From NCBI GenBank assembly GCA_937924755.1, contig CALEVZ010000011.1, positions 1 through 64,000 of the forward strand: DNA of 64,000 bases. Direction: 5' to 3'. The translations under genes were made by a program, and so were the position numbers. Below are positions 40,735-45,122 of the stretch, piece after piece. Under the pieces are notes generated by a model, which did not search any database, was not told the DNA's origin, and saw only the letters and a program-made list of their open reading frames with translations. Numbering within the stretch: position 1 is the first letter of the stretch; every line of letters begins with the position of its first letter. The stretch is from an uncultured bacterium. GTDB lineage: Bacteria > Acidobacteriota > Thermoanaerobaculia > Thermoanaerobaculales > Thermoanaerobaculaceae.

Positions 40735-41037
40735 CTAACCCTTGACCTCTTCCAGCAGCTTCAGGAACTGCTCGTAGGCCAGCGCCTGCCAGCTCTCCGC
40801 CGTCACCGCCCCTTGCGCCCGCGAGATCAGCGACACCTTGTGCGCCGTCTCCACGTCCGGCGCCTCGTAGATGTCCATGAAGTCGTAAGGGCCCAGGATG
40901 GCGTAGTGCGCGAGGAAACGCACCTGGGGACAGGCCTGTTTGACACGCTTGAGCCACTCCTTGCCCATGGCCGCGCGGCCCGCGGCGTCGTGGGCCGCCT
41001 CGGGCGCCAGCCGGGTCATCAGCACGAACGTCGGCAT
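40735..41037 (-). CDS. GYD-domain protein
   Basis: A 100-residue protein from an ATG with GGGGAGGTG eight bases upstream. The fold is a dimeric alpha/beta barrel of the GYD family: MPTFVLMTRL opening strand, the ILGPYDFMDIYEAPD segment (GYD appears as GPYD) and a closing helix. GYD proteins are small single-domain proteins without known enzymatic role. An in-frame extension upstream is low-complexity Ala/Gly sequence and is rejected. Confidence 0.85.
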   Translation of the reverse strand: MPTFVLMTRLAPEAAHDAAGRAAMGKEWLKRVKQACPQVRFLAHYAILGPYDFMDIYEAPDVETAHKVSLISRAQGAVTAESWQALAYEQFLKLLEEVKG

Positions 41038-41102
41038 CGAGCACCTCCCCGCACGTGGTGTCAGCAGTGTAGCGCACCGTGTCGGCCCCACGGCCGATAG
41101 CA

Positions 41103-41933
41103 TCAGCGGCCGGGCCAGCGCGGGCGCACCCACACAAACCCCGGCACCCGCTCCGCCACCTGCGACAGCGCCGTCAGCCGCGCCGCCGCCGTCCCCGGCG
41201 CCCCCAACCCCACCCACGCACCCCACAGCTCGCGCACCACCAGCCTGGCGGCCAGCCGCCGCACCTGCCGCTCGCCCACGCCGCCCAGCGCCGGAAACAC
41301 CACGGCGAGCGCCGGCAAAGCCCCGGCGAACAGGCCGGAACCAGGGGTCGGCCACCCCCCCCGCGGCAACCCCACCACCGGCGGCGGGCCATCGCGGACG
41401 GGACGCAGCCACACCAGGTCATCCGCCAGCACCGGCCAGCCGGCCGCCGCCGCCGCCGTGGCGATCGTCGTCTTGCCCACCCCGCCCGGCCCCGGAAAGA
41501 CGAGCGCCGAACCCTTAAGGCCCACCGCCGCGGCGTGCAGCAAGAGCCACCCCTGGGCCAGCGCCAGCTCGCCGAGCACGGCCGGCAAAACGCGCCAGAT
41601 CACCTGCCGGAGGAGCTCGCCGTCGTCGGCGGCAGCCACCACCACGGCCGCGTTGCCCGACGCGTCCACCTCCACGCTCACCTTCCCCGCCAAAGCCGCC
41701 ACCTCGCCGCGCGGCCGCCACAAAAAACCGGAGGATGACGGCGGGTGACCGCTCTCCCCCTTCGGCACGCGCCAGCAAACCACCGCGGTGGTCCCCTCCG
41801 GTGGCCGCGCCGTCGCTTCCGCCCCGAGAAAGTGCCGGGCGGCGGCGAGCGCCTGGGCGGGCCACCCCCGCAGGGTAAACCTCGGGGCGCCGGGGATGAC
41901 CGGTGACCAGGCCCAGTCGCGGCACTCCTGCAC
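41103..41933 (-). CDS. HprK-like P-loop kinase
   Basis: A 276-residue protein resembling the C-terminal kinase domain of HPr kinase/phosphorylase. The N-terminal ~110 residues are unrecognised. Then come LLLHAAAV (the LHA lead-in, His133), the P-loop GPGGVGKTT (148-156, Lys154) and the acidic pair in VLADDLVWL (171-172). It lacks the clear HprK N-terminal domain, and no PTS genes are near. Homologues of this stand-alone form are often found in lasso-peptide and other RiPP clusters, where some phosphorylate the peptide. Divergent from the subtilase gene at 42067, which is coupled to a small leader-like peptide gene, so a role in that locus is plausible but inferred. Confidence 0.7.
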   Translation of the reverse strand: MQECRDWAWSPVIPGAPRFTLRGWPAQALAAARHFLGAEATARPPEGTTAVVCWRVPKGESGHPPSSSGFLWRPRGEVAALAGKVSVEVDASGNAAVVVAAADDGELLRQVIWRVLPAVLGELALAQGWLLLHAAAVGLKGSALVFPGPGGVGKTTIATAAAAAGWPVLADDLVWLRPVRDGPPPVVGLPRGGWPTPGSGLFAGALPALAVVFPALGGVGERQVRRLAARLVVRELWGAWVGLGAPGTAAARLTALSQVAERVPGFVWVRPRWPGR

Positions 41934-41990
41934 GGCGGCATGATACCGGGAACGGAAAAACTGTTCAAATTCATTACATGCGATGACTGA

Positions 41991-42024
41991 ATCACTTGAC
42001 GCGGCGAAAAGTGATCACTATCGT
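41991..42024 (+). promoter_or_regulatory. Promoter with overlapping palindromic operator
   Basis: TTGACG (41996-42001), a 17-base spacer and TATCGT (42019-42024) form a plausible promoter for the subtilase gene. AGTGATCACT (42010-42019) is a perfect palindrome touching the -10 box, and ATCACTT (41991-41997) with AAGTGAT (42009-42015) is an inverted pair spanning the -35. Together they suggest repressor control of the divergent locus. Confidence 0.5.
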
Positions 42025-42066
42025 AACGAAGAGCTCGGCCGGCCGAGCGGAGAGGGGGGACATGCC

Positions 42067-44955
42067 ATGAAAGCGAGCACTTTGCTGTGGACAGCAATGG
42101 CCCTGGCGGTCGGCGCCGTCGGGCCGGTTTCGGCTGCCCTCCCGTGGGCCACCGTACCCATGCCTCTCGAGGCGCTGCAGGCGCCCATCGAGGAGCCGGA
42201 GCGGGGCGCGCCAGGCGCAGCCCTCGAGCAGCTCGCGCAGCTCGTCGCCAGCGGCCGGCCGTGGCAAACCTGGGCGGCCGCTCACGGCCTGCTGGTCGAG
42301 GACGAGGCGGTGCTCGTGGAGCTGCGCTTCGCCGCTGCCCCGGCGGGCCCCGAAGAAGTGGCGCTCGGCCGCCTGGGGGTGCGCCGCCATGTGCAGAACG
42401 TGCCCACGCTCCTGGAGGCGTGGGTGCCGGTACGCGCCCTTGCCTCCCTGCAGGCGCTGCCGGGCCTGCTCGCGCTGCGGCCGGCGCGCCTGGTACGCCC
42501 CTCCACCGCTGCACCCCTCGCCGGCAATGTGCAGTCGGAAGGGGTGACGCAGTCCGGTCTCGACCCCTACCACGCCCTGGGCGCCGACGGCAGCGGCACC
42601 CTCGTCGCCGTCATCGACGTCGGTTTTCAGAACTGGGCCGCCCTGCAGTCCAGCGGCGACTGGCCACCGCCGAGCCGCCTGCGGCGCTTTGAGGTCAGCG
42701 GCAGCACCGTGACCGACTGCGACGTGGGCAGCTGCACCACCTTCGGCGCCTCCCCGCACGGCGCGGCCAACGTGGAAATCGCCTACGACAGCGCCCCCGG
42801 CGCCACCTTCCTGGTCTACAAGACGACCACCATCGGGGAGTGGTACCAGGCGCTGCTGCACGCCTCCGACGCCACGGCCAACGGCCAGGGGGTGGCCGAC
42901 GTCATTTCGGTCTCGCTCGGTGCCCCCTTGGACGGCATCGGGGACGGCAGCGCCTGCCCCCCCATTTGGCCAGCCCCCTGCGGCACCATTGCCGAGGCGG
43001 CCACGATCGCCCGCAGCCGCGGTTCGCTGGTGGTCAACGCCGCCGGCAACGGGCGCATCCAGCACTGGGGCGGCCTGTACGCGCCGTCGAGCGGCAACGC
43101 CAACATCCACACGTGGAGCGGCTCCAACGCCCGGGTCAACTTCATCGGCAACGGGTCAGGCGGCGCGTACTGCATCCCCAACGGCACCCTCCTTACCGCC
43201 GAGCTGTTCTGGGACGATTGGACCAACGTCAACCACGACTACGATTTGTATCTCGTCGAGTACACCGGCAGCTCCTGGTCGGTACGGGCGCAATCGATCA
43301 ATGGTCAAAACGGCAGCAGCGGGCAAAGCCCCCAGGAGTACATCGCCTGGACAGCCTCGACCAACTATCCCGCGGTATGCGGTGCCACTTCCGGCGTGTA
43401 CGGCTTTTACGTTCGCCGGTGGAGCGCCGCCACCAACCGCAACCTGCAGTTTTTCGGCCCCTACGATATGAATTACCGCGTTCCCGCCCGCTCCCTGGGC
43501 TTCCCTGCCGACTCGCCGGCGGTGTTGGCGGTGGGAGCGCTCGACGTGGGCAACCCCTCCAGCCAGGAGTACTACAGCGGCGAGGGGCCGCAGCTGGCCC
43601 CCGGCGGAGGCTTGGGCAGCCCCACCAACCCCAAACTCGACCTCATGAGCTTTGCCCGCGTTTCCACCATCAGCTACGGTCCCGGCGGTTTCGCTGGCAC
43701 CTCCGCCGCCACCCCCCACGCCGCCGGGGTGGCCGCGGTGCTCACCCAGCTGCGCAACGAAAAACCCGTCGAGCGCGGCAGCCAGCCGGCCGGCCTGCAG
43801 CGTGCCCTCGAGCTGGCGGCCCTCGACGGTGACAACGATCTGGGGGCGGCGGGGCACGACACGGTGTACGGCTACGGGCGGCTGCGCCTGCGGGAGTGCA
43901 GCGTGGCGGCGGGCATCCAGGCCGGCTGGAACCTCGTCGCGCTGCCCTGCGACCGGCGCGGCCAGAACACCCCGGCCGGAGTGTTCGGGGCGTCCCTCGG
44001 CACCTTCAACACCGACTGGGCGATGTGGCGCTACAACGCCGGCGCTGCTGCCTACGAACGCATCTGGAGCGCCTCCGCCCCCCTACAGCTGGGCGAGGGG
44101 TACTGGCTGTACCGCTTCACCACCCCGTCCCCCAGCAACTACACCGGCCTCGTAGCCGACCGCTCCGAGGCCTACCCCCGTGCCGTCACCGGCGCCCCGG
44201 GGCTCGGCCGCCCGCACATGGTGGCGGCGCCGCGCACCTTCTCGATTCCTTGGAACCAGGTGCGCTTTTACTACGGCGGCAGCGAGAAGAGCTTCGCCCA
44301 GGCGTACGCCGACGGGGTGATCCGCAACCTCATGTGGACCTGGAACCGCACCACCCAGCAGTACGAGGTGTTCGACGGCCTGCTCGGCGAGGGCACGATT
44401 GCCCCTGGGCAGGGCTTTTGGATCCGCGCCCTGCAGGATGTGGAAGTGCGCCTGCCCGCCGAGGTGAGCGGCGGCGGCAGCGCTCCCGAGCGTCGGCTCA
44501 CCGTGGGGTGGATGGGACGCCTGCACCTGACCGGCTCGACCGCCACCGCCCACGTGCAGTTGGGCCACCGGCTGGGCGCCGCCGACGGCTTTGACCCGCA
44601 CGACGCCGAGCACCTTCCGGCTCCCTCCTCCCCCCCATTGCGGCTCGCCTTCCCCCACCCGGACTGGAAGGATTTCGCCGGCGACTACCTGCGCGACGTG
44701 CGCGCCCCCAAGAAGCGGGACGAGTGGGTGATGGTCATCCAGGCGGCGGCGCCCACCAAGGCCACGCTCACCTGGGAGGTGCCGGCCTGGGTGGCGGCGG
44801 ACAGTGTCCTGGTGGACGAGGCCGCCGGCAAGGAGATCCCGCTGCATCTGCTGCCCCACGGGTACGAGCTGGAGCTGGCGGCGGGCAGCCGCACCTTGCG
44901 CTGGCGCCTGGGCCGCGACAGTGTCGGGACGGCCCCCCCGCGGAGGTCCCCGTGA
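42067..44955 (+). CDS. Secreted subtilase (S8 peptidase)
   Basis: A 962-residue exported serine protease. The ATG at 42067 has GGAGAGGGGGG upstream and a signal peptide cut near VSAALP. Residues ~25-150 look like an inhibitory propeptide. The S8 domain covers ~165-600, with catalytic Asp184 (VAVIDVGF), His231 (SPHGAAN), oxyanion Asn328 (NAAGNG) and Ser546 (GTSAATPHAAG). A ~150-residue beta-rich insert lies between Asn and Ser. The ~350 C-terminal residues contain repeated GWNLVALPC / GEGYWLYRF / GQGFWIRAL beta modules. The stop overlaps the GTG of a 56-residue peptide gene, so it may process that peptide; this is inference. Asp is in DVG rather than DTG. Confidence 0.88.
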   Translation: MKASTLLWTAMALAVGAVGPVSAALPWATVPMPLEALQAPIEEPERGAPGAALEQLAQLVASGRPWQTWAAAHGLLVEDEAVLVELRFAAAPAGPEEVALGRLGVRRHVQNVPTLLEAWVPVRALASLQALPGLLALRPARLVRPSTAAPLAGNVQSEGVTQSGLDPYHALGADGSGTLVAVIDVGFQNWAALQSSGDWPPPSRLRRFEVSGSTVTDCDVGSCTTFGASPHGAANVEIAYDSAPGATFLVYKTTTIGEWYQALLHASDATANGQGVADVISVSLGAPLDGIGDGSACPPIWPAPCGTIAEAATIARSRGSLVVNAAGNGRIQHWGGLYAPSSGNANIHTWSGSNARVNFIGNGSGGAYCIPNGTLLTAELFWDDWTNVNHDYDLYLVEYTGSSWSVRAQSINGQNGSSGQSPQEYIAWTASTNYPAVCGATSGVYGFYVRRWSAATNRNLQFFGPYDMNYRVPARSLGFPADSPAVLAVGALDVGNPSSQEYYSGEGPQLAPGGGLGSPTNPKLDLMSFARVSTISYGPGGFAGTSAATPHAAGVAAVLTQLRNEKPVERGSQPAGLQRALELAALDGDNDLGAAGHDTVYGYGRLRLRECSVAAGIQAGWNLVALPCDRRGQNTPAGVFGASLGTFNTDWAMWRYNAGAAAYERIWSASAPLQLGEGYWLYRFTTPSPSNYTGLVADRSEAYPRAVTGAPGLGRPHMVAAPRTFSIPWNQVRFYYGGSEKSFAQAYADGVIRNLMWTWNRTTQQYEVFDGLLGEGTIAPGQGFWIRALQDVEVRLPAEVSGGGSAPERRLTVGWMGRLHLTGSTATAHVQLGHRLGAADGFDPHDAEHLPAPSSPPLRLAFPHPDWKDFAGDYLRDVRAPKKRDEWVMVIQAAAPTKATLTWEVPAWVAADSVLVDEAAGKEIPLHLLPHGYELELAAGSRTLRWRLGRDSVGTAPPRRSP

Positions 44956-45122
44956 CCTCCGCCGCCATCCCCGCGAACGCGACGCCCTCCGAGCAGCATG
45001 GGGGTTACCAGCCGCCGCGGCTGGAAATCCTCGGAAGGCTCGAGGAACTGACACTGCAGTTCCCCTCGCCCCCTCCACCTCCGGGTCACCCCGAAGGCTA
45101 CCCACCCTGGCCGCCCCGCTGA
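44952..45122 (+). CDS. 56-residue proline-rich peptide with RiPP-leader-like motif
   Basis: Small gene whose GTG at 44952 overlaps the subtilase stop (GTGA), so its translation is probably coupled. The N-terminal part contains YQPPRLEILGRLEELTL (residues 19-35), matching the YxxP...LxxLGxLxxLT pattern of lasso-type RiPP leaders that bind a PqqD-like recognition element. The following 20 residues (37-56) hold 11 prolines plus Tyr50 and Trp53. A normal lasso ring is not possible: after Thr34-Leu35 there is no Gly/Ala-type position 1 and no Asp/Glu at positions 7-9. No maturation enzymes (B or C protein) are adjacent. A precursor peptide of unknown type or a coupled chaperone/inhibitor of the protease are the options. 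Confidence 0.55.
   Translation: MTSAAIPANATPSEQHGGYQPPRLEILGRLEELTLQFPSPPPPPGHPEGYPPWPPR

Follow-up and report, generated by a model that had tools for sequence, protein, structure and literature searches.

A small lasso-leader peptide gene coupled to a secreted subtilase gene in an uncultured Acidobacteriota bacterium: a candidate linear, phosphorylated RiPP matured in trans

Introduction

What purpose is served by a gene of 56 codons that begins within the stop codon of a gene for a large secreted protease? This question is raised by a stretch of 64,000 nucleotides (referred to as the window; contig CALEVZ010000011.1 of assembly GCA_937924755.1) from an uncultured bacterium of the family Thermoanaerobaculaceae (Acidobacteriota), in which a subtilase gene is followed by the small gene and preceded by a divergent gene for an HprK-like kinase. 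The original prediction regarded the three genes as a candidate RiPP-type locus that no described class fits.

A processing subtilase encoded beside a RiPP precursor is known from class I lanthipeptides, e.g. NisP, and HPr-rel-A cassettes consist of an HprK-related stand-alone kinase, PqqD, and a nucleotidyltransferase. Phosphorylated lasso peptides of the paeninodin type and those with Ile or Val at position -2 are exemplified by PadeA/K and BsfA/K (PMC9266682, PMC10368454). BsfK is a lasso-precursor kinase that phosphorylates Ser3 of the core, and its catalytic residues have been reported (PMC10368454). Linear polyphosphorylated peptides (LPPs) were described from the lppAKBSDN system of Paenibacillus alginolyticus (Nat Commun 2026, PMC13381572). 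LPPs have been reported mostly from Bacillota and have the leader motif YxxPxVLxHQxIxFETxxS and a signal-peptidase-like leader peptidase, LppS; their clusters encode a discrete RRE, an HprK-like kinase, a nucleotidyltransferase, and a transporter, and the product is linear and Ser-phosphorylated (PMC13381572). They co-occur with paeninodin-like clusters and doubled RREs, and the biological roles of both LPPs and paeninodins were stated as unknown by the same authors (PMC13381572).

Results

The features of the locus are collected in Table 1. The gene of 56 residues was indeed found to begin within the subtilase stop codon, as had been predicted: the GTG start at 44952 overlaps the stop (GTGA, 44952-44955), and a GGAGG sequence lies five bases 5' of it. 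The encoded peptide is MTSAAIPANATPSEQHGGYQPPRLEILGRLEELTLQFPSPPPPPGHPEGYPPWPPR. The lasso-type leader pattern proposed for residues 19-35 was recognised by the NCBIfam model NF033521 (lasso_leader_L3) at 20.4 bits against a cut-off of 19, and the peptide carries the YxxPxL...T(-2) arrangement by which lasso leaders are defined. It was the sole match over the cut-off in the 3.35-Mb genome (E = 0.0025 for the whole genome). Furthermore, when a profile was made from four gammaproteobacterial peptides without the window peptide, the latter ranked first among 1166 ORFs of its genome with E = 1e-5, the match carrying some 9 bits of composition-bias correction; the runner-up was a leader-like peptide on contig C15 (E = 0.15). 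No signal peptide was found on the window peptide, so that its export would need a transporter. The 171-bp gene was confirmed as a real gene coding for a small peptide with a lasso-type leader.

Table 1 Features of the subtilase-peptide locus; positions are those of the window.
Feature	Position	Strand	Remarks
Stand-alone HprK-like kinase, 276 aa	41103..41933	-	HprK_rel_A E = 2e-9; ScmC-like 3e-3; divergent from subtilase
Secreted subtilase	42067..44955	+	Peptidase_S8 (PF00082) E = 6e-16; 59 bits vs 21.8 cut-off
C-terminal domain of subtilase, about 355 aa	43888..44952	+	No Pfam or NCBIfam match
GGAGG ribosome-binding site of peptide gene	44942..44946	+	From sequence; within subtilase gene
Peptide gene	44952..45122	+	171 bp, 56 codons/56 aa; GTG start, stop 45120-45122; five orthologous subtilases have a homologous small ORF next to them
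Leader motif YQPPRLEILGRLEELTL, Y19-L35	45006..45056	+	NF033521; Y(-17), P(-14), L(-12), T(-2)
Predicted core QFPSPPPPPGHPEGYPPWPPR	45057..45119	+	From sequence; Ser at 4; no Asp/Glu at 7-9; cleavage site inferred from T(-2) register
FPSPPPPP	45060..45083	+	Same residues in two Wenzhouxiangella peptides; synonymous differences in 6-7 of 8 codons

Full-length orthologs of the subtilase were present in another Thermoanaerobaculales MAG (G025) and in two Wenzhouxiangella MAGs (44-47% identity), and two relatives of the latter gave near full-length profile matches. The gammaproteobacterial loci are L147 (G498), L148 (G499), L172 (G511), and L189 (G532), and the window genome is G000. The small gene was found beside all six orthologs with the C-terminal domain, and in a motif scan beside none of eight S8 homologs without it (one-sided p of about 3e-4, hand-calculated); the window and G025 (L131), where the ORF extends into the subtilase and which the scan therefore skipped, were counted by reading. 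In the case of an Anaerolineae homolog (L150), from which the domain is likewise absent, no small leader gene was noticed. The peptides read ...YRPPAVRSFGRRLPSFRPPSWPEQPVPGRPPSS in G025, ...YEPPLMSGVVNLRDLVADFPSPPPPPRSEEEEDFYEPPEDDYW in G498, ...YEPPRIHRVIRFRDLIRQGFPSPPPPPGGESEEPDFDEWDRYV in G499, ...YHPPEVKTVQLRNIVLQGPPSPPGDGNPQRWDEGW in G532, and ...YQAPEFKVAKLKLITLGGTAGEFDPGHESPGRPPQPDTEWGELEETGSDWY in G511. In G025 the gene also starts within the subtilase stop codon, with an overlap different from that in the window, and in G499 it lies upstream of the subtilase. A frameshifted subtilase tail was put lower as an explanation, since the overlap type and the gene order vary between genomes.

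Both YxPP and FPSPPPPP recur in more than one phylum; FPSPPPPP has the same eight residues in three genomes belonging to two phyla (Acidobacteriota and Gammaproteobacteria). The G025 peptide has neither LT nor FPSPPPPP, and PPPPP is missing from those of G511 and G532. The peptides are short, with 24-37% identity, and synonymous changes were read off the FPSPPPPP codons directly. The original prediction had named two contrary outcomes, absence of the small gene beside homologous subtilases and a frame without purifying selection; given the 6/6 pairing, the profile rank, and the synonymous FPSPPPPP codons, neither was observed. Across 396 Acidobacteriota genomes, the peptide profile found the FPSPPPPP form in the window genome only. 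Of 11 other matches, seven were inspected, and all seven proved to be chance hits to another frame or gene. Among 149 genomes of the class, the full-length subtilase was seen only in G000 and G025.

PPPPP is a ribosome stalling sequence, and the small gene might be a regulatory or ribosome-arrest ORF, or a chance neighbour, apart from any RiPP chemistry. The upstream position in G499 fits this reading, as does the G498 peptide gene (L147:3238-3528), which is located some 100 bp upstream of yajC-secD-secF; a poly-proline ORF placed ahead of Sec genes is reminiscent of arrest peptides. However, the genes downstream vary between genomes while the subtilase is constant, the leader motif scores over a curated cut-off, and the same gene stands next to PqqD in G511 and G532, both without PPPPP. 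A chance ORF and an arrest peptide were put lower, and this reading is the least probable of those weighed here.

After the leader come 21 residues, 11 of them prolines. The expectation that this core is not lasso-compatible was upheld. A macrolactam ring of 7-9 residues joins the N-terminal amine to an Asp or Glu at positions 7-9; the window core has no acid there, and the first acid of QFPSPPPPPGHPEG... is at position 13. Therefore, no known lasso ring size is possible, and a plain lasso peptide was ruled lower. G498 and G499 have no lasso-compatible core either, and among the orthologous positions only the relatives G511 (GGTAGEFD) and G532 (GPPSPPGD) have lasso-compatible cores. This distribution, together with the absence of a cyclase in cis, is consistent with a decaying lasso precursor that lost its ring acceptor and persists as a relic by virtue of the subtilase overlap. 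Decay is very unlikely, however, since the non-lasso core FPSPPPPP is itself kept between phyla with synonymous changes, and neither the overlap of G025 nor the gene order of G499 is that of the window. The Ser in PSPP is kept in four of the six peptides and is the putative phospho-acceptor.

The divergent gene had been taken for a stand-alone HprK-like kinase of lasso type, and its HprK_rel_A match and intact catalytic residues agree with this. Alignment against 11 further HprK-like kinases from RiPP-type loci showed that the window kinase keeps H133, G148, G151, G153, K154, T155, D171, and D172, i.e. the His, P-loop GxxGxGK[ST], and Asp-Asp by which HprK-like RiPP kinases are recognised; these residues correspond to the catalytic H148/G163/G166/G168/K169/S170/D186/D187 of BsfK at a constant offset of 15. 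With 36.9 bits against TIGR04352 (HprK-related kinase A; cut-off 200) it falls outside the equivalog, and recognition by Pfam Hpr_kinase_C is weak (E = 0.31), the assignment resting on NCBIfam, the alignment, and the motifs. The AlphaFold model of the kinase (pLDDT 41) was too poor for fold comparison. No kinase gene adjoins the pair in G025, G498, or G499, or on the 4.5-kb contig of G511. Clear lasso-type kinases were found in five of the six subtilase-pair genomes, the draft genome G499 being the one without. A GYD-domain protein (PF08734, 72 bits; window 40735-41046) adjoins the window kinase.

The B and C maturation enzymes had been reported as missing. In cis this is correct: no B1, B2, or C enzyme, RRE, or cyclase adjoins the window locus, which by itself does not make up a lasso cluster. 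Elsewhere in the genome such genes are present. Contig C37 carries PqqD (B1) and B2, and contig C15 carries Asn synthetase, two PqqDs, a kinase, a nucleotidyltransferase, and a small leader-like peptide, YAAPTLVVRRLEEVVRGEEGSEPD; the PqqD-like and asparagine-synthetase-like proteins that were to be looked for outside the locus were thus both found. Maturation in trans, as had been suggested, is plausible, given that the genome encodes PqqD, B2, Asn synthetase, and further kinases at other places.

The C15 genes form a paeninodin-like cluster of the window genome (L127, G000:C15, 1792-7757), which contains the kinase, a secreted protein, the leader-like peptide, Asn synthetase, the two PqqDs, and the nucleotidyltransferase, with an ABC-type gene nearby; the core of its leader-like peptide is GEEGSEPD, possibly G1-D8.

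In two of the relatives, genes of this kind adjoin the pair. The G532 pair is followed by PqqD, an ABC transporter, an HprK-like kinase, a second leader peptide, and Asn synthetase, and in G511 a B2-like gene precedes the pair and PqqD follows it. The PqqDs of G000 C15 (both copies), G498, G499, G511, and G532 form one clade (99/99), to which those of G025 (92 bits) and G019 (89 bits) belong by profile score; the G019 member shows that the clade extends beyond the subtilase-pair genomes.

The window subtilase is a multi-domain secreted enzyme of about 960 aa, for which the ATG at 42067, giving a signal-peptide-like N-terminus, is more likely to be the start than 41983, the start of the longest ORF. 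Its catalytic motifs are intact (Asp, D212, 42616-42618; His, H259, 42757-42759; Ser, S574, 43702-43704) and are also kept in the G025 ortholog. The AlphaFold model of its C-terminal domain (pLDDT 53) was too poor for use. Secreted proteins other than the subtilase, among them a reprolysin and a cytochrome-like protein, carry this domain where they stand beside PqqD/HprK genes, and in G028, G656, G706, and G565 it occurs beside PqqD/HprK/Asn-synthetase genes on proteins without a recognised protease domain. Hence, the partner of the peptide may be that domain, or secreted proteins generally, rather than proteolysis.

The peptide could be a ligand or assembly factor for the C-terminal domain or for secretion, and not an inhibitor of the enzyme. 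The small gene accompanies the domain and is missing from S8 homologs without it, and non-S8 proteins with the domain also stand beside PqqD/HprK genes and short YxAP ORFs. Nevertheless, the short ORFs of the non-S8 loci are partly Tat-signal-peptide-like and the C25-linked proteins described below have no match to the domain, and we regard this reading as improbable.

Two observations concern the neighbourhoods of this domain. In L132 (G028:C188, 3419-4690), PqqD and HprK kinase matches lie within one frame, directly after a cytochrome-like protein bearing the domain. Small ORFs resembling RRxLLxxAGKxx[YW]xAPxLTxLS, partly Tat-signal-like, stand beside proteins with the domain and HprK/PqqD genes (L195:9103-9282, L196:7648-7899, L197:2616-2864, and L198:2664-2864).

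The surroundings of related kinases were also considered. A search of 60 relatives with the window kinase gave 35 matches, and 86 Peptidase_C25 genes were present in those genomes. Fifteen of the 35 kinase loci lie within 10 kb of a Peptidase_C25 gene, against at most 0.33 expected for random positions; the Poisson p of about 4e-20 makes the linkage look stronger than it is in that the loci share ancestry, and weaker in that contigs are short. A trypsin-like protease stands beside the kinase locus of G050, and in G596, from the gammaproteobacterial set, a reprolysin (M12B) shares the C-terminal domain of the window subtilase and has a small YSAP peptide, PqqD, and HprK encoded after it. No C25 gene was found in G000, so that S8 takes that place here. 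The maturation genes vary: G002, G023, and G015 have Asn synthetase and PqqD, with B2 as well in G002 and G023, and many other kinase loci have a radical SAM gene.

A radical-SAM/PqqD/HprK locus with a YDPP peptide (L219, G045:C47, 734-8726) stands beside a 1717-aa S8 subtilase of other domain make-up, and this S8 linkage looks like a second one, independent of that in the window. A second peptide family, Yx[KRTP]P...[LR]...EEAVLGxCK...C...C...S, occurs with radical SAM, PqqD, HprK, and usually a C25 protease (L262:5983-6207, L263:7529-7744, L265:8781-9011, L266:13071-13241, L267:14370-14540, L272:6664-6834, L274:8009-8206, and L225:12189-12389); the four members scanned (L265, L267, L274, and L225) had no NCBIfam match.

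The original prediction had the subtilase cut the peptide, or the peptide inhibit or chaperone the subtilase. The subtilase could be a maturation protease, acting on the exported peptide by taking off its leader or trimming its core; the translational coupling of peptide and protease, the lack of a B2 gene adjoining the window locus, and the use of a non-B2 leader peptidase by LPPs (PMC13381572) are in keeping with this. However, such loci or their genomes contain B2-type genes (G002, G023, G511, and C37 of G000) and the family of the neighbouring protease changes (S8, C25, M12B, and trypsin), which weakens this main rival; moreover, the C-terminal domain is also carried by non-proteases, and the peptide has no export signal. 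Cleavage by the subtilase is thus one option among others, and we consider it unlikely.

Discussion

Judged from sequence, the nearest known kind is that of the LPPs and the paeninodin-type lasso peptides. The claim that no described class fits was not sustained: LPPs combine a YxxPx leader, an RRE, and an HprK-like kinase without a cyclase (PMC13381572), and the subtilase-linked peptides of G511 and G532 are lasso-compatible. The window locus resembles LPP systems in its YxxPx leader, HprK-like kinase, and predicted ringless core, and the two PqqDs on C15 recall their doubled RREs. It differs in that the full LPP leader motif is absent, the window reading YQPPRLEILGRLEELTL, a leader of plain lasso type, and in its proline-rich core, its unlinked RRE, and its pairing with a secreted subtilase. 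The RRE, transporter, and nucleotidyltransferase genes of LPP clusters were not seen within the window locus; the PqqDs and a nucleotidyltransferase are on C15. With PadeA and BsfA it shares the leader Y(-17)xxP(-14)xL(-12) with T/I/V(-2), the His-Lys-Asp-Asp motif of the kinase, and the presence of B1, B2, and C enzymes in the genome, whereas the core has no acid at 7-9 and those enzymes are not in cis. The Ser is at core position 3 in BsfA and LppA but at 4 in the window, unless cleavage occurs one residue later. A stand-alone HprK-related kinase is common to the window and the HPr-rel-A cassettes (TIGR04352), although the window kinase is not an equivalog member. As in NisP-type loci, a subtilase gene stands beside a RiPP precursor; unlike in those, C25, M12B, or trypsin-like proteases replace it in related loci, and a processing role of the window subtilase is putative. 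In the titles, abstracts, and text passages covered from the open-access literature, we found neither a protease partner described for such peptides nor any account of the protease linkage.

Taken together, we put at about one in two the probability that the gene encodes the precursor of a linear, probably Ser-phosphorylated RiPP that is matured in trans and is a partner of the co-encoded secreted subtilase. RRE binding, phosphorylation, leader removal, linearity, and action on the protease are steps that we infer. The leader, i.e. the first 35 residues of lasso/paeninodin type, would be recognised by a discrete PqqD-like RRE from C15, where two copies are present. The proline-rich core of 21 residues would stay linear, without macrolactamisation, and the divergent HprK-like kinase would probably phosphorylate the conserved Ser of F-P-S-P; RRE recruitment, Ser phosphorylation, and a linear core would follow, by analogy, the described LPP and BsfA pathways. 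The leader may be removed by the B2-type peptidase of C37 or by another protease. The linkage of the genes suggests that the peptide acts on or with the subtilase, as a dedicated small partner that would most likely be an inhibitor or regulator restraining the translationally coupled secreted enzyme.

The repeated siting of kinase-modified peptides beside large secreted proteases hints at the purpose of these peptides. It is conceivable, though the chances are against it, that HprK-kinase RiPPs of Acidobacteriota and Gammaproteobacteria are dedicated to a large secreted protease encoded with them, be it C25, S8, M12B, or trypsin-like, and that this is so irrespective of lasso, radical-SAM, or linear chemistry. 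They might, for instance, act as phosphorylated inhibitors or regulators by which the enzyme is kept silent until release, and the FPSPPPPP peptide would be a linear, stripped-down case. The conserved pairing of HprK, RRE, and leader peptide with a large secreted protease recurs with several families of protease, under lasso-type as well as radical-SAM-type maturation, and supplies a concrete partner that can be tested. It also shows that an orphan precursor may come to light next to its functional partner even though the biosynthetic genes lie elsewhere in the genome. If the peptide inhibits or regulates the protease, kinase-modified RiPPs would be a bacterial means of controlling proteases and could yield new protease inhibitors, possibly also against gingipain-type (C25) enzymes, and if the protease-partner reading is true, the whole group of HprK-kinase RiPPs would gain a new biological role.
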